NCBI GenBank assembly: GCA_902568235.1
Contig: CACFPS010000001.1
Span: 124,001-188,000 of the forward strand
Source: an uncultured Pelagibacteraceae bacterium
Lineage (GTDB): Bacteria > Pseudomonadota > Alphaproteobacteria > Pelagibacterales > Pelagibacteraceae
Direction: 5' to 3'
DNA length: 64,000 bases
Position 1 is the first letter of the stretch. The number at the start of each line of letters is the position of its first letter. Below, one piece after another: positions 38,494 through 46,314 of the stretch. Under the pieces are notes generated by a model. It saw only the letters and a list, made by a program, of their open reading frames with translations. It was not told the DNA's origin and searched no databases. Made by a program: the position numbers and the translations under genes.

Positions 38494-38843
38494 ATGGCAA
38501 CAATAAAAGTTACAGATGAAAGGTTTGAAGAAGAAGTTTTAAAGAACTCTAAGCCAGTTCTTGTTGACTTCTGGGCCCGCCCTTGGGGGCGTGCTCTCTA
38601 AAAACTGAATGGTGTGGCCCATGCAAGATGGTAGGGCCTTTATTAGAAGAAATTTCTGAAGAGATGTCCGATGAAATCGTTATAGCAAAACATGACATTG
38701 ACTCTGAACCCAATACTCCAACCAAATATGGTGTGCGAGGAATTCCAACTATGCTACTATTTAAAGATGGAGAGTTAAAAGCAACCAAAGTAGGTGCAAC
38801 GCCTAAAAGTGACATTGTTTCTTTCATAAAAGAAAATATTTAG
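38494..38843 (+). pseudogene. trxA: Thioredoxin, interrupted by a 29-nt insertion at 38578..38606
   Basis: MATIKVTDERFEEEVLKNSKPVLVDFWA | 29 nt with in-frame stop | EWCGPCKMVGPLLEEIS...IKENI in another frame. Confidence 0.88.
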
Positions 38844-40093
38844 TTTAAATTTAAAACTTCTCCCGCAAGATATAAAGAACCTGTAATTAGTACTATATCA
38901 TTTTCTTGAAGATTTAGTTTGTTTATAGCTTCCTGTATTGACGATCTAAACTGTGCTTTTGGAAATTTATTTTTAAGATCTATTCCATTTATTGCATTAG
39001 TTTGATTTGGTATATCGATTGTTGTTAATGATGCAATATTTTTAAAATAATTCATATATTCAATATGATCTTTATTATTCATCATTCCCAAAATTATATG
39101 TTTGTTGCAATTCAAAGTTTCTAAATATTCATTTAAAACTTTTGCTCCAAGAGGATTGTGTGAACCATCAACAAAAATTTTATTATTTCTGCATAAGTCT
39201 TTTATTTTACCGTTTTTAATTTCTTGTAATCTTGCAATACTTTTAATTTTAGTTATTCCATTTTTGATATGCTTGTCTTCTATTTTCAAGTTAAGACTTC
39301 TGACAGTCGCTATCGCTGTTGCAACATTTTCAATTTGAAATTTTCCTATAAGATTAGGTTTAGAAAGTTTTAATCCGCCAATTTCATCTTCATAATAAAT
39401 AAATCCATTTTCATTTTCAGAGATATTAAATTGCTCATTATATATGATTTTTTTTGAATTATTTGATGATATATTTTTTTTAATATTATCTAATATTTTA
39501 TTATTTTCTTGTTTAGCAATTACAATTTTTGAATGTAATAATGATGAAGTTTTTTCATAAACTATTTTTTCAATTGTTTTCTCATTCTCAGGAAGCCAAT
39601 CTAAATGATCTAAACCTATAGCAGTAACAATGCTTGCCAAATTCTCATTTATAATATTTGTTGCATCAAAACGGTGAAATAATCCACTTTCAATAAGATT
39701 AATATTTTCAAAGTATTTTGCTTGATAAAAATAAGCAGCTGTCAATATTTCGAAATAAGTAATGGGTTCACCGGCATTAATTTCCTCTACTTCGATTAAT
39801 AATTTTGCCAGGTTATCATCTGAAATTTCTCTATCGTTAAAAACAAATCTTTCATTAATCTTTTGAATATGAGGACTTGAATAAATATTAACATTTATAT
39901 TGGCTTCTTTAAGAATTGCTCTTAAGGCTTGAATTGTAGAATATTTTCCATTGGTTCCTACAATAGAAATGCATTTTAATTTTTTCTCTGGATTTCCTAA
40001 TTTTTTACAAAGATTTAGAATTCTTTCTAGACTTAAGTCTATTTCTTTAGGATGCAGCTTTTGTAAGCGTGTCAGTATTGTCTGAAGTTTCAT
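38840..40093 (-). CDS. folC: Folylpolyglutamate synthase / dihydrofolate synthase
   Basis: ISIVGTNGKYSTIQALRAIL, SSPHIQKINERF, ATAIATVRSL, FVDGSHNPLGAKVL. Confidence 0.93.
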   Translation of the reverse strand: MKLQTILTRLQKLHPKEIDLSLERILNLCKKLGNPEKKLKCISIVGTNGKYSTIQALRAILKEANINVNIYSSPHIQKINERFVFNDREISDDNLAKLLIEVEEINAGEPITYFEILTAAYFYQAKYFENINLIESGLFHRFDATNIINENLASIVTAIGLDHLDWLPENEKTIEKIVYEKTSSLLHSKIVIAKQENNKILDNIKKNISSNNSKKIIYNEQFNISENENGFIYYEDEIGGLKLSKPNLIGKFQIENVATAIATVRSLNLKIEDKHIKNGITKIKSIARLQEIKNGKIKDLCRNNKIFVDGSHNPLGAKVLNEYLETLNCNKHIILGMMNNKDHIEYMNYFKNIASLTTIDIPNQTNAINGIDLKNKFPKAQFRSSIQEAINKLNLQENDIVLITGSLYLAGEVLNLN

Positions 40094-40982
40094 TGGATTT
40101 TTCTGAATTTACCTCAGAATTTTTTTTAAGCAATATTGATAAAATAGTACTGATTTCTTTTTTTAGATTTTTTCTAAGTATAACCCTGTCAACAAAACCA
40201 TGTTTTTCTAAAAATTCAGCAGTTTGAAAATCTTGTGGTAACTCTTCTTTTACTGTTGCTTTTACCACACGAGCTCCAGCGAATGCTATTAGCGCACCTT
40301 TTTCAGAAAAATGAATATCGCCTAACATTGCAAATGATGCCGTTATACCTCCGGCGGTTGGATCAGTAAATATAACTATGTATGGGAGATTATTTTTTTT
40401 CAATTCATTAATTGCAAGCGTAGTTTTTGTCATTCCAGATAAAGCAATCATAGACTCAAACATTCTCATTCCACCACCACATGGAAAAAAAACTAAAGGT
40501 GTCTGATTGTCTATTGAGTGTTGAACTGCATATACAACAGCTTCAACTTCACTAGCTCCAAATGAGCCACCAATAAAATTAAAATTTACAGCTCCTGCTG
40601 TAATTTGAATATCATCTATATAGCCTTTGGCTACCATCACAGCACAATTTTGATTAGTTTTATTTCTAGCTTCTTTAAGTCTTTCTGTGTATGGTTTAGT
40701 ATCGACCCAACCAAGAGGATCATCTGATGCAATAGGCGTCTTTAAGATTTCATAATTATTCTTTCCAAAAAAAATATCAAATCTTTGAATAGGATCAATT
40801 CTATGATGTTTGTCGCAGTTAGGACAAACCCAAAGGTTTTCTTCTAAATCTTTTTTGCGTATTGGTCCTTGGCAACAGCTTGTCCAATCAGAATTAGCAA
40901 TTTCTTCCTTTGTTGGGAACTTTTTTTGCAAATTCTTTTTTATTTTATCTCCAAAATTTTTAATTTTTGTTAACCAATTCAT
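40047..40982 (-). CDS. accD: Acetyl-CoA carboxylase carboxyltransferase subunit beta
   Basis: CCQGPIRKKDLEENLWVCPNCDKHHR zinc ribbon; GGSFGASEVEAVVYA; GGGMRMFESM; DPTAGGITASFAMLGDI. Confidence 0.96.
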   Translation of the reverse strand: MNWLTKIKNFGDKIKKNLQKKFPTKEEIANSDWTSCCQGPIRKKDLEENLWVCPNCDKHHRIDPIQRFDIFFGKNNYEILKTPIASDDPLGWVDTKPYTERLKEARNKTNQNCAVMVAKGYIDDIQITAGAVNFNFIGGSFGASEVEAVVYAVQHSIDNQTPLVFFPCGGGMRMFESMIALSGMTKTTLAINELKKNNLPYIVIFTDPTAGGITASFAMLGDIHFSEKGALIAFAGARVVKATVKEELPQDFQTAEFLEKHGFVDRVILRKNLKKEISTILSILLKKNSEVNSEKSNETSDNTDTLTKAAS

Positions 40983-41779
40983 GAAATTTTATTTCTTAAT
41001 TTTGCTACTATTTTGCTTACATTTGTGACAGGATTTTGTCTATACTTCAAACTTCTTGTGATTTCTTTGCAAATAGCACTGCCAACTACCAAACCATCGG
41101 CTGATTTCAGCGCTGAAATGGTTTTTTCAGTAATTCCAAATCCAATTACACAATTTTTTTTGGGGTCAATTTTTTTTATTTTATTATAATTTGTTAATAT
41201 TTTTTTTGGAGATACTTTTAATTTTCCACCTGTTGTGGAAAGCATGCTAATGTAATAAATCATATCATGTGAGTCTTTGATTATTTTCTTTAATCTCTCA
41301 TCAGAAGTTGTTGGTGACAACAATTGTATAAAAGCAATTGATTTTTTTTTACACTTGTTTGAGAAAATTTTATTTTCTGGCCAAGGCAAATCGACAACGA
41401 TTAAACCATTTACATATGATCTTTTACATTTTTCTAAAAATTTATTTTCTCCGTATTGATAGATCATATTGTAGTAACCCATTAATATTACAGGTTTTGA
41501 TATAAATTTTTTCTTAAACTCTTTTACTATTTTGAAAACATCATTTATTTTAAGACCATTCTTTATAGCGCGATTTGAGCTTGTTTGAATTTGCCCCCCA
41601 TCTGCAATAGGAGTATTATGTGGAAAACCTATTTCACAAATATCAACGTTATTTGATATTGATTTCAAAATTTCTAGTGATTTTTTTTTCGAATTATCTC
41701 CTGCCACTGTGTAAGTTAATAGTGCAGGTCGACTTTGCTGTTTTGCTTTTTTAAATGCAATACTTATTGGATTAATCAT
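40979..41779 (-). CDS. trpA: Tryptophan synthase alpha chain-like protein (divergent motifs)
   Basis: TIM-barrel TrpA family: ICEIGFPHNTPIADGGQIQ (Glu49/Asp60 equivalents kept), GFGITEKTISALKSADGLVVGSAI; several family motifs changed. Confidence 0.85.
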   Translation of the reverse strand: MINPISIAFKKAKQQSRPALLTYTVAGDNSKKKSLEILKSISNNVDICEIGFPHNTPIADGGQIQTSSNRAIKNGLKINDVFKIVKEFKKKFISKPVILMGYYNMIYQYGENKFLEKCKRSYVNGLIVVDLPWPENKIFSNKCKKKSIAFIQLLSPTTSDERLKKIIKDSHDMIYYISMLSTTGGKLKVSPKKILTNYNKIKKIDPKKNCVIGFGITEKTISALKSADGLVVGSAICKEITRSLKYRQNPVTNVSKIVAKLRNKIS

Positions 41780-43008
41780 ATAATTCTTCCTAACCTTTTT
41801 CTTAAAATGTCACGATCTTTTTTTGCATCACCGCAAGAATTAACTATCACAACTATATCTTTGTTTAGTTTGGGTGCAATTTTTATTGCCTCAGCAAAAG
41901 CATGACTTGGTTCTAAACTAGGATTTAATTTTTCATATTTTGTAACTAGTTTATATGCATTTAAAGCTTCTTCATCAGTAGCGTAAGTATATTTTGCTCT
42001 TTTTGTATCTTTTAAAAAGCAATGAAGTGGGCTTACGCCAGGATAATCAAGACCGGCACTTATAGACTCGGTCTCATTTATTTGCCCTTCATTGTCCTGG
42101 CAAACGTATGATGCGGCGCCATGTAATACACCTAGTTTGGCACCTTTACTTAAAGGAGCTGCATGCAACTTTGAATATTTTGGTCCACCCGCCTCAACAC
42201 CAATAAATTCTATTTTTGTTTTTGGGTAATCAATAAATTCACTCCAAAATCCATAAGCTGAACTGCCACCACCAACACAGTTAATTAATTTAATCTTTTT
42301 TGGAAATTTATTAAATTCTTTTTTTATTTGTTTTTTAAGCTCTCTAGAAATTTGAGCTGTACTCCATCCACAAATCTTTACAAATATGTTGGGTCCTACA
42401 GTAGAACCAACACACATGTGAGTAGTATCACAGTTAGAAACCCAATAACGCATGCATTCACTTACTGCATCCACTAATGTTTGACTACCAGTATAAACCG
42501 GTACTATTTCGGCACCATTTTTTCTCATTGCATCGCAATTAGGTTTTTGTCTTTTTATATCTTTGATTCCCATAAATATTTTACATTTGAGGTCAAATTT
42601 TTTTGCTGCCATACTTAACATTTTTCCAGCATATCCAGCACCAGTATCACCAACAATATATTTTTTTCCCATACTCTTACAAATTAGAGCATGGACCGTT
42701 GCATTATATATTTTATGAGCACCACCATTAGCATCTGAAACTACCTTTGCCCAAATTTGAGCACCACCAAGATGATTTGATAGTTTTTCTAATTTTATAA
42801 ATCTAGTGGGAGATCCAATATAATTTTTAAAATAGAAATCTCTTTTTTTTAAAAAACTTTTATTTTTTCTAAGTTTTTGAAATTCTTTTGTTAAATCATC
42901 AACGGGTTTTTTTAAAGTTTCTGGTATGAAACTTCCACCAAATTTTTTACCCCAAAAACCAAACTTATCATGTTGGTCTATTAATGGGATTTTTTTTTTT
43001 ATTCTCAT
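41776..43008 (-). CDS. trpB: Tryptophan synthase beta chain-like protein (divergent motifs)
   Basis: TrpB family overall: GGAHKIYN with PLP Lys, DTGAGYAGK, CVGGGSSAYG, SISAGLDYPGVSPLH, LEPSHAFAEAI; many canonical residues replaced. Confidence 0.85.
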   Translation of the reverse strand: MRIKKKIPLIDQHDKFGFWGKKFGGSFIPETLKKPVDDLTKEFQKLRKNKSFLKKRDFYFKNYIGSPTRFIKLEKLSNHLGGAQIWAKVVSDANGGAHKIYNATVHALICKSMGKKYIVGDTGAGYAGKMLSMAAKKFDLKCKIFMGIKDIKRQKPNCDAMRKNGAEIVPVYTGSQTLVDAVSECMRYWVSNCDTTHMCVGSTVGPNIFVKICGWSTAQISRELKKQIKKEFNKFPKKIKLINCVGGGSSAYGFWSEFIDYPKTKIEFIGVEAGGPKYSKLHAAPLSKGAKLGVLHGAASYVCQDNEGQINETESISAGLDYPGVSPLHCFLKDTKRAKYTYATDEEALNAYKLVTKYEKLNPSLEPSHAFAEAIKIAPKLNKDIVVIVNSCGDAKKDRDILRKRLGRII

Positions 43009-43621
43009 TTTTAATATTATTAATATTATTTAAAAAAATATTTATTTTTGAAATATCTTTGTCTCCTGCCGTCTCTAAACTTCCTGATATGTCAATAATA
43101 TCTGTTATTTTTTTATATTTATCAAGGTTATCATTATATTGAATATTGCCAGCGAGCATTTTATTTATGAAAGTTGGCACATTATTTAGTAGTTTGTGAT
43201 CGAAACTAGCAGATTTTTCGTAGCCTTTGCCATCAAATAAAATTATTTCAGAAATGTTTTGATAATTTTTATACTCTTCGACATCTTTTATATTTTTTAT
43301 TGTTAGAGCGGTTATAATTTTTATTTTATATTTGTCTTTTATTAATTTAGTTTTTTTTGGGCTCACATCATATAGTTGATAATAATCAAAATTTAGACCT
43401 TGAATATTTTCTAAATTTTCTTCACTTGGATTAACAAGAACCGAGACAAAGTTTATTCCTTTCTTATCAACATTAATTAATTGTTTAAGATTTTTATACT
43501 CTAAATATCTTTTTGATTGAGGGTAATTAGTTATAAAACCAATGTACTTTGGTGGGCAATTATGATTTATCAAATAGCTTAAAGTTTTAGGATCTTTTAT
43601 TCCACAAATTTTAGCATCCAT
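42968..43621 (-). CDS. trpF: Phosphoribosylanthranilate isomerase
   Basis: AKICGIKDPKTL, YIGFITNYPQSKRYL, FDGKGYEKSASFDHKLL, MLAGNIQYNDNL, DISGSLETAGDKDISKI. Confidence 0.85.
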   Translation of the reverse strand: MDAKICGIKDPKTLSYLINHNCPPKYIGFITNYPQSKRYLEYKNLKQLINVDKKGINFVSVLVNPSEENLENIQGLNFDYYQLYDVSPKKTKLIKDKYKIKIITALTIKNIKDVEEYKNYQNISEIILFDGKGYEKSASFDHKLLNNVPTFINKMLAGNIQYNDNLDKYKKITDIIDISGSLETAGDKDISKINIFLNNINNIKNENKKKNPINRPT

Positions 43622-44295
43622 TATTCTTTAAGATGATCAATTAATTTTTTAATATTTTTTTTTATATCACCCTTAGTGATCGGTCTACCAATTACTAGCC
43701 AGTCACTACCATTTTTATATGCTTCTTTTGGTTTCATAACTCTTTTTTGATCCTGTGTATTTGTATCTAATCTAATACCAGGTGTTATGATTTCTTTTTT
43801 GAATATTTTTTTCACTGATTTTACTTCTTGGGCGCTAGATACAATAGCATCAAGTCCAGCTTTATTAGCCAATTTTGCTTGATGGATAACTAGTTTTTTT
43901 ATTTTTTTGCTAAAACCAATTTGTTTTAAAGCATTATTATCTAAAGATGTAAGTGAAGTAACTCCAACTAGTTTTGTTTTACCAGAAACTTTTTTTGCTG
44001 CTTTTAAAGCCTCTAGACCAGAACTTACATGAATAGTTAAATAATTTACTTTGAGATCTTTAATAGCTTTCACAGCCGAAGCACATGTATTTGGAATATC
44101 ATGCAATTTCAAGTCTGCAAAAATAATTTTATTTTTTAATTTAGATATAAACTCTCTACCATACTTTGAATTTAAAAATTCAAGTCCAAATTTATATCCA
44201 ATTTTGATTTGCGAATTATTTGTTTTTTTGATTATTTCCTTCACTCTTGAAATTTTAGTACTGTCACAAGCAATAAAAACTTTTCTAATTTTCAT
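43621..44295 (-). CDS. pyrF: Orotidine 5'-phosphate decarboxylase
   Basis: KIGYKFGLEFL, IFADLKLHDIPNTCASAVKAI, ITPGIRLD, GSDWLVIGRPITK. Confidence 0.95.
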   Translation of the reverse strand: MKIRKVFIACDSTKISRVKEIIKKTNNSQIKIGYKFGLEFLNSKYGREFISKLKNKIIFADLKLHDIPNTCASAVKAIKDLKVNYLTIHVSSGLEALKAAKKVSGKTKLVGVTSLTSLDNNALKQIGFSKKIKKLVIHQAKLANKAGLDAIVSSAQEVKSVKKIFKKEIITPGIRLDTNTQDQKRVMKPKEAYKNGSDWLVIGRPITKGDIKKNIKKLIDHLKE

Positions 44296-44572
44296 TTATT
44301 TTTTTTGTCCATTCTTTTGACATTTTAAATTGTATTGTTGTTTTTTGCGGTGTATTTACTTTTTGATTTGTTTTAGGGTTTCGAGAAATCCTCGCTTTTT
44401 GTGTTCTTGACTCTAATGTAAAAACGTCTCTTAATTCAACTCTTTCTTTACGTTTCAAAGCGTTTTGCATTTCATACAAAATTATATCTAATAATTTTGT
44501 TAAATCTTTTCTTAAAAAATTAGGATAATTATCTGCTAGCTGTTTTATTAGTTTTGATTTTACTACTGACAA
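44285..44572 (-). CDS. ihfB: Integration host factor beta / HU-family DNA-binding protein
   Basis: KSKLIKQLADNYPNFLRKD...VELRDVFTLESRTQKARISRNPKTNQKV; directly after rpsA. Confidence 0.88.
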   Translation of the reverse strand: MSVVKSKLIKQLADNYPNFLRKDLTKLLDIILYEMQNALKRKERVELRDVFTLESRTQKARISRNPKTNQKVNTPQKTTIQFKMSKEWTKKINEN

Positions 44573-44580
44573 TTTAATTC

Positions 44581-46314
44581 TTATTCAGTTTCTTTATCTT
44601 TCTTTTTATCATCTAATTTATCTGATAGCGATGAGAAAGGTAAGTTTTTCCCGCTAAGAGGGCTAGAAAACTTAGAAACTGCCTCTTTATTTTGAATTTC
44701 CTCTAGCAATTTAATGCTTAGACTAACCTTTCTTTTATCTAAATTTATTTCTGCTATAGCGGCATCAATTCTTTCTCCGCCAACAAATCTTGAAGGTCTT
44801 GCGTCTGCCGCGCTAACGGCAATTTGTGATTTTTTTATTAGATATTCTAATTCGCATCCTTCGGGCTTCACTGTTAGTCCTTTGTTGTCAGATGAAATTA
44901 CTTGTACTGTAATTATATCCTTAATTTTTTTATCTTGAAAATAATCAAATGGATCATTCCCGAGTTGTTTAAGTCCAACACGAACTTTTTGATCTTCCTT
45001 TTTAATTTCTAAAATTTTTACTTTTAATTTATCACCTTTTTTATATTTTTTTAATTCTTCTTCTGAATTGCCAGTGTATGAAAGATCATTTGAATGTAAA
45101 AAACCATCTATATCAAAGTTACCCAGTTTAACATATATTGCATATTCATTAATACTAGAAACTACTCCTTCAATTTCCGAATTTATACTATATTCACGCT
45201 CTAACTTACTGTAAGGATTTTCTGTATTTAGCCTATAAGATATAGCCACTCTTCTTTTATCCTTATCTATTTCTGTAATTACACAATCAATATTATCACC
45301 AACTTTGAAAAATTTTTTTGGAGAAACATTTTTTTTTGTCCAACTAATTTCACTACTGTGTAACAAAGAACTTAAACCAGGTTCTAATTCGCAAAAACAT
45401 CCATAATCAGTTATTTTAACTATTTTTACTTTATATGATTTATTTATTTCATAGTTTGAAATATGTTCAAATGGATCAGGAGATAATTGTTTTATAGAAC
45501 ATCCTATTTGTAATTTTTGCATATCTATTGAAATAATTTTTAAGTCGTGTTTTTCACCAATATTAAATACTTCATCGGGATGATTAACTCTAGAATAAGA
45601 AATTTCTTGTAAATGTACCAAAACATCAATTTCATTATTTACTTCAAAAAAACAACCAAATGAAGAATATCCTTTTACTACAGCATCCTTAATAATATCT
45701 CCGACTTTAAATTTCCCAATTATTTTTGCCTTATCTTCTTTTTTATTTGTTGAAACTATTTGTCTTCTCGAAACACATGCATTTCCTCTGATTTTGTCTA
45801 ATTTAATAATTGCAAACTTTTGATCGACATTAATAAGATGATCAATATTTTTAAGCGGTTTGTCCGATATTTGTGATCCTGGGCAAAACATTAGCGATCC
45901 AGTTTCCAAATGTTCAACTATTACTCCACCTTTACATTTAGATACAATTTTTCCATTAATGGACTCTTTGGATTCATAAGCTTTTTCAAGTTCATACCAA
46001 CCTTTTATTTTTTGGGCTCTATTAGCAGATACAATTACATCTCCATTTTTATCTTCTATTTTTTCAAGCAATACAGATACAGTCTGTCCTACAGCAATTT
46101 TATCCTGCATTCCGATTGATTTCATTTCATTTAGATCAATCACCGGTTCACTTTTAAGGCCTGGTATAAAGAGAAATATATATTTTTCTGTAATTTTGGT
46201 TATTTTTCCATCAATTATTTTTCCTTCTTCAATTTTTTCCTTTGATAATTGACTTTTAAGTAGTTTTTCAAATTTTTCTGACGCAGGTGAACTAATTTTT
46301 TTATAAATTTCCAT
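44581..46314 (-). CDS. rpsA: 30S ribosomal protein S1
   Basis: 577 aa with multiple S1 repeats; follows cmk. Confidence 0.96.
   Translation of the reverse strand: MEIYKKISSPASEKFEKLLKSQLSKEKIEEGKIIDGKITKITEKYIFLFIPGLKSEPVIDLNEMKSIGMQDKIAVGQTVSVLLEKIEDKNGDVIVSANRAQKIKGWYELEKAYESKESINGKIVSKCKGGVIVEHLETGSLMFCPGSQISDKPLKNIDHLINVDQKFAIIKLDKIRGNACVSRRQIVSTNKKEDKAKIIGKFKVGDIIKDAVVKGYSSFGCFFEVNNEIDVLVHLQEISYSRVNHPDEVFNIGEKHDLKIISIDMQKLQIGCSIKQLSPDPFEHISNYEINKSYKVKIVKITDYGCFCELEPGLSSLLHSSEISWTKKNVSPKKFFKVGDNIDCVITEIDKDKRRVAISYRLNTENPYSKLEREYSINSEIEGVVSSINEYAIYVKLGNFDIDGFLHSNDLSYTGNSEEELKKYKKGDKLKVKILEIKKEDQKVRVGLKQLGNDPFDYFQDKKIKDIITVQVISSDNKGLTVKPEGCELEYLIKKSQIAVSAADARPSRFVGGERIDAAIAEINLDKRKVSLSIKLLEEIQNKEAVSKFSSPLSGKNLPFSSLSDKLDDKKKDKETE

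Follow-up and report, generated by a model that had tools for sequence, protein, structure and literature searches.

The trp locus of an uncultured Pelagibacteraceae bacterium of the SAR11 group has been analysed in a stretch of 64,000 nucleotides (positions 124,001 to 188,000 of contig CACFPS010000001.1, assembly GCA_902568235.1), referred to below as the window. Its trpB gene encodes a protein of 410 amino acids, denominated D-type TrpB, in which many active-site and interface residues are replaced. The D-type TrpB very probably serves, in association with the adjacent TrpA, as the functional beta subunit of tryptophan synthase in SAR11. It most likely makes tryptophan, since closed genomes have no second TrpB, and P. 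ubique HTCC1062 grows in artificial seawater supplemented with glycine, glycine betaine, pyruvate, dimethylsulfoniopropionate and vitamins, tryptophan not being listed (PMC5069961). In SAR11 genomes trpB and trpA are swapped as pairs in one genomic slot, while the flanking genes stay similar.

Residues retained and replaced in the D-type TrpB

The trpB open reading frame (ORF) starts with ATG, has no internal stops and is located on the minus strand between trpF and trpA, in keeping with the intact TrpB-like ORF reported in a first-pass annotation of the sequence. The encoded protein features the motifs AKVVSDANGGAHKIYNA, DTGAGYAG, GSTVGPNIFVKI, GGGSS, SISAGLDYPGVSPLHCFL, LEPSHA and NSCGDAKKD, and passes the Pfam PALP model. 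It scores 388 bits against NCBIfam TIGR00263, the TrpB1 model, and only 91 and 87 bits against the TrpB2-type models TIGR01415 and NF009057, which have cut-offs of 518.85 and 366, respectively. With TrpB2 it shares the fold-type II of pyridoxal 5'-phosphate (PLP) enzymes and Cys377, a residue also usual in alphaproteobacterial TrpB1. An AlphaFold model built on an alignment of 35 sequences (predicted local distance difference test 87.8, predicted template modelling score 0.89) finds its best match among solved structures in the TrpB of P. furiosus (template modelling score 0.90, root mean square deviation about 2 Å). With canonical TrpB1 proteins (TIGR00263; P. furiosus, LBCA-TrpB, Salmonella/E. 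coli) the D-type shares the fold, Lys87, the GGGS loop, the TGAG core, the Arg141-Asp305 pair, Glu350 and the trpA neighbour. It differs from them in overall sequence (about 40% identity) and for Asp109, Tyr114, Ala115, Ala148, Val167, Asn195, Ser236, Ser310 and Asp379.

Residues, numbered as in E. coli TrpB, were compared with a set of 18 canonical TrpBs, mainly alphaproteobacterial. The usual residues are kept at K87, T110, G111, A112, G113, R141, N145, G232-S235, D305, E350 and K382; L279 and H280 also agree with the set. Most of the replacements listed in the first-pass annotation are true departures (the KREDL stretch before K87, N89Y, E109D, Q114Y, H115A, H195N, P196I, G310S, R379D and D381K), to which Q94H, R148A, K167V and N236S have to be added. 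Thr88Ile and Ser377Cys are to be struck from that list, Ile88 being found in 18/18 and Cys377 in 17/18 canonical proteins. As had been proposed, the enzyme is a modified TrpB.

D-type sequences were tabulated from the order, in a set chosen partly for odd cases and near relatives and hence not a random sample. Lys87, Asp109 and Val167 are present in all (100/100). An acid is retained at position 109, where Glu is found in 18/18 canonical proteins. The GGGS phosphate loop, which like the PLP lysine had been correctly described as kept, is conserved in 99/99 readable sequences, and the Arg141-Asp305 closing salt bridge in 98/98. Position 114 is occupied by Tyr (92 sequences) or Met (8), and position 115 by Ala (83), Asn (10) or Phe (7). 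Residues 114 and 148 are paired: Tyr114 is accompanied by Ala or Ser148 in 91 of 92 cases, Met114 by Phe148 in 7 of 8. Judged from these sequences, the changes are a fixed trait across the SAR11 clade.

At E<=1e-40, 228 of the 247 genomes searched in the order have a match to the window protein; most matches are D-type, and the rest belong to other trpBA types. The best matches outside the order, from searches of about 380 alphaproteobacterial and about 400 proteobacterial genomes, reach 41-45% identity, and the 15 alphaproteobacterial ones in which the motif was inspected all have ETGAGQHG. The best 80 of 442 entries in a scan of named genomes are nearly all Pelagibacteraceae or Pelagibacterales, many of them single-cell genomes; one is titled only Alpha proteobacterium. 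D-type sequences may occur, rarely, beyond these. Twelve genomes without a TrpB match at the same threshold were checked. In 10 of these accD is missing as well, in the other 2 it lies at or near a contig end, and trpD was found in all 10 searched, so that the absence of TrpB looks like the result of assembly gaps, not of loss.

For the 102 pairs with dS<0.5, the median ratio of nonsynonymous to synonymous changes (dN/dS, Nei-Gojobori) is 0.034. The nearest pairs of the window TrpB itself have dS >1, and their dN/dS is about 0.07-0.08. Purifying selection, already suspected from the intact ORF, is thus borne out. A decayed gene or an assembly or sequencing error has in its favour the many motif residues replaced in a small genome, and nothing else. 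Identical letters are found in about 100 other loci (about 100 genomes, closed and single-cell ones included), and the changes are therefore not due to chance, sequencing error or decay. Recurrence and dN/dS refute this explanation, which has been rejected as having next to no probability.

In trees D-type TrpBs form one clade (100/100), with a stem of about 1 change per site, and the TrpB2-type protein of the same genome falls on a separate long branch. The D-type stands apart from alphaproteobacterial TrpBs, but a tree joining the two is compatible with the approximately unbiased test (p 0.25). Because of this result and of the long branches, the tree does not decide the origin of the D-type, which may have evolved rapidly in situ or have been acquired from a lineage not sampled. 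A divergent early D-type branch, L118, reappears in single-cell genome records. A deep early branch (L250 of genome G238, L161 and L162) features DTGAGMAG and SQSHKLNN, and is 53-58% identical to the rest. It is found in a whole genome and is matched in the single-cell records AG-390-C19 and AG-365-D07.

Matched changes in TrpA

The TrpA of the window scores 204.7 bits, the cut-off being 102. TrpAs located beside D-type TrpBs retain Glu49, Asp60, Thr183 and Gly184, and have the loop L2 sequence PHNTPIADG in place of PFSDPLADG. We take alpha Asp56 and beta Lys167 to form an ion pair in the Salmonella structure; a statement to this effect was not found in the literature searched. In loci of the five cassette types, beta Lys167 is accompanied by Asp or Glu at alpha 56 in 28/28 cases, and a neutral beta 167 (Val, Leu) by a neutral alpha 56 (Thr, Ala, Cys) in 101/101. 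Charges at the two positions match in all the 129 readable loci (129/129). Few independent events underlie the match (roughly two losses and a single Asp-to-Glu change), and co-variation is for this reason consistent evidence rather than a large sample. By sequence comparison, TrpA has changed in step with the D-type TrpB. Contact between the subunits is made by alpha loop L2 and by the COMM domain with helix beta H6 (PMC9512447), and alpha Asp56 and beta Lys167 both contact beta Tyr279 (PMC8187860).

In the closed genome G040 the trpA gene located beside a D-type trpB (L052:777-1573) is split across two reading frames, being otherwise 95-97% identical. The split is due either to an error in sequencing or to a genuine frameshift.

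Predicted reaction and rival readings

Catalysis, substrate, complex formation and kinetic consequences are predicted for the D-type TrpB as follows. TrpA and TrpB would form an alpha-beta complex, in which TrpA splits indole-3-glycerol phosphate to give indole, and TrpB couples indole to the PLP-bound aminoacrylate derived from L-serine. The chemistry would be the usual one, with a Lys87 Schiff base and proton transfers, and the carboxylate of Asp109, in place of that of Glu, would steady indole N1. The roles of Lys87, residue 109 and the Arg141-Asp305 pair are established (PMC9512447). The pocket and the alpha-beta contact have been rebuilt as one set. In the loop lining the indole subsite, where the substrate carboxylate is also held, Tyr114 and Ala115 take the place of Gln and His, and Ala148 takes that of the Arg bonded by Gln114 in the closed state, in which Gln114 bonds both Asn145 and Arg148 (PMC9512447). 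Since the width of the indole subsite is set by the His115-Phe306 distance (PMC9512447), Ala115, along with Asp109 and Tyr114, suggests a site reshaped, not missing. With the alpha 56-beta 167 ion pair lost on both sides, the complex would still close through Arg141-Asp305. In SAR11 genomes the trpB-trpA pair acts as a single exchangeable cassette.

The changed residues 109, 114, 115 and 148 belong to the carboxylate loop and the indole subsite, as might be found in a re-specialised fold-type II PLP beta-replacement enzyme, associated to TrpA and using mainly another amino donor or nucleophile. To this may be added that Glu109Asp alters substrate specificity and activity in Salmonella, according to the title of a 1992 paper by Brzovic et al. 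(cited in PMC9512447). Such a re-specialisation is nonetheless unlikely, as closed genomes retain the rest of the pathway and have no TrpB1 other than the D-type, HTCC1062 needs its own tryptophan source, and TrpA has conserved catalytic residues and co-varies with TrpB. The same observations, together with the TrpB fold, leave unsupported the weakly active synthase and the other-substrate lyase or synthase put forward in the first-pass annotation. The indole-activating Glu is changed also in the plant TSB-like pseudoenzyme (PMC12727527), and a D-type TrpB that no longer makes tryptophan, activates TrpA and releases free indole has to be considered. This is highly improbable. Plant TSB-like proteins carry Ala, Ser or Pro at that position and Glu for Asp305, and are found in addition to a normal TSB, whereas the D-type keeps an acid at 109 as well as Asp305, and a second TrpB1 is absent from closed genomes.

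Some findings weigh against a working D-type beta subunit. Besides the Salmonella Glu109Asp effect mentioned above, Gln114Ala impairs the beta reaction (PMC9512447). The 388 bits scored by the window TrpB fall just under the TIGR00263 cut-off of 392.45; several relatives with identical motifs pass it, with up to 410 bits. The genome of the window (1.12 Mb, 32 contigs, 80% complete) hosts, besides the D-type, a gene of the TrpB2 type (453 amino acids, ETGAGQWG and FNLCGHGHFD motifs, L002:1267-2628 on contig C7), and no trpD was detected there. A TrpB2-type gene is present in a minority of relatives. The closed genomes of the genus have one TrpB1 each, at the canonical locus, and no TrpB2-level match. 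As to trpD, 9 of 10 genomes checked have it, all but the incomplete genome of the window, as do 16/16 others.

A SAR11-like trpB1 cluster, distinct, unusual and presumed functional, has been described in the Sargasso Sea metagenome and P. ubique HTCC1062 by Kagan et al. 2008 (PMC2395257). The single trpB of HTCC1062 belongs to this cluster and is found in the same gene order. The passages of that paper considered here contain no description of replaced catalytic residues, matched TrpA change or alternative cassettes. Neither the rebuilt motifs nor the joint change of the alpha and beta subunits nor the replacement of cassettes is described in the literature searched, most subscription papers being outside the search, and full-text searching for E109D in tryptophan synthase gave no match. 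The divergent SAR11 cluster is thus already known, while motif rebuild, TrpA co-change and cassette swaps are apparently new.

Exchangeable trpBA cassettes

The slot rpsA-himD-pyrF-trpF-[trpBA]-accD-folC hosts at least five deeply different trpBA types in the order (Table 1). The window and the closed genome G078 are 70% identical in rpsA, 69% in pyrF, 61% in accD and 64% in folC, but only 38% in trpB and 29% in trpA. Between G026, the trpB of which is D-type, and G173, identity is 84% in rpsA and 80% in himD, vs 27% in trpB and 33% in trpA. In the sister family, G176 and G120 are similarly 86% identical in rpsA and 82% in accD, vs 50% in trpB and 43% in trpA. The reverse is found in G118, also of the sister family, which has a D-type TrpB 68% identical to that of the window and flanking genes only 27-47% identical. 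This TrpB may have passed from one family to the other, or be under unusual constraint. Every TrpB type pairs in the trees with its own TrpA clade, with no exception and with D-type support of 100/100 in both, which indicates that trpB and trpA move together. A viral source was looked for, and none was found.

Table 1. Genes of the trp region in the window, and trpBA cassette types of the order
Feature	Coordinates	Strand	Remarks
trpB, SAR11 D-type, 410 aa	41776-43008	minus	Asp109/Tyr114/Ala115/Ala148/Val167; active site and interface rebuilt
trpA, 266 aa	40979-41779	minus	partner; keeps Glu49, Asp60, Thr183, Gly184; alpha Asp56 replaced by Thr (PHNTPIADG)
trpF, 217 aa	42968-43621	minus	
pyrF-like (orotidine 5'-phosphate decarboxylase)	43621-44295	minus	upstream flank; name from published SAR11 gene order and synteny
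himD-like (HU/IHF-type) DNA-binding protein	44285-44572	minus	upstream flank; name from published SAR11 gene order and synteny
accD-like	40047-40982	minus	downstream flank of slot
folC-like	38840-40093	minus	downstream flank of slot
Cassette D-type			window and most of order
Cassette ESGAGQHY/F			e.g. closed genome G078, L004
Cassette ETGAGAHL			L107-L109
Cassette ETGA[S/F]			L039, L121, L122
Cassette canonical ETGAGQHG			L104-L106

The trpB gene of the window overlaps trpF by 41 bases, at the trpB start, and trpA by 4 bases. Because of these overlaps trpF, trpB and trpA are probably co-transcribed. Promoter and terminator scans gave no signal above chance.

The ESGAG and ETGAGAHL types keep Lys167 and Glu56, and have lost the Arg141-Asp305 pair, replaced by Arg with Gln or Thr, and by Leu with Asn, respectively. 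ESGAG-type TrpAs (L004:2609-3421 and others) have Glu at the catalytic Asp60 and a divergent loop 2, YCTSEASAEGP, in 7/7 loci. The D-type may represent a different catalytic and allosteric solution, with an Asp-based indole site, no alpha 56-beta 167 pair and possibly altered use of serine or donor, in a trpBA allelic cassette in which at least five alpha-beta pairs replace one another, different allosteric ion pairs being lost. This wider reading is tentative, and rather doubtful as a whole.

The rarer ETGA[S/F] cassettes (also in regions L246 and L247) encode TrpBs about 28% identical to that of the window, with ETGASM or ETGAFQ and HLCGSGE motifs. Because branches are long, their place in the TrpB tree is not fixed. 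When regions L246-L250 are compared with the window interval 38840-46314, accD, folC and pyrF also fall, between close genomes, into distinct similarity classes (30-32% or 64-71% for folC, 47-53% or 67-69% for pyrF). The pattern is that of a mosaic, with alleles apparently swapped throughout the region.

Tryptophan synthase is a textbook allosteric, channelling enzyme, and Glu109, Gln114 and Lys167, held to be near-universal in it, are replaced here as a matched set, across the greater part of a highly abundant group of bacteria. The cassettes of SAR11 amount to natural experiments, in which one type keeps Arg141-Asp305 and drops the alpha 56-beta 167 contact, and others do the reverse. Since opposite contacts are lost, which of them the enzyme needs is directly testable. 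The cassettes also offer new starting points for TrpB engineering, and the in-place exchange of a pair of core biosynthetic genes between closely related genomes is relevant to SAR11 evolution.
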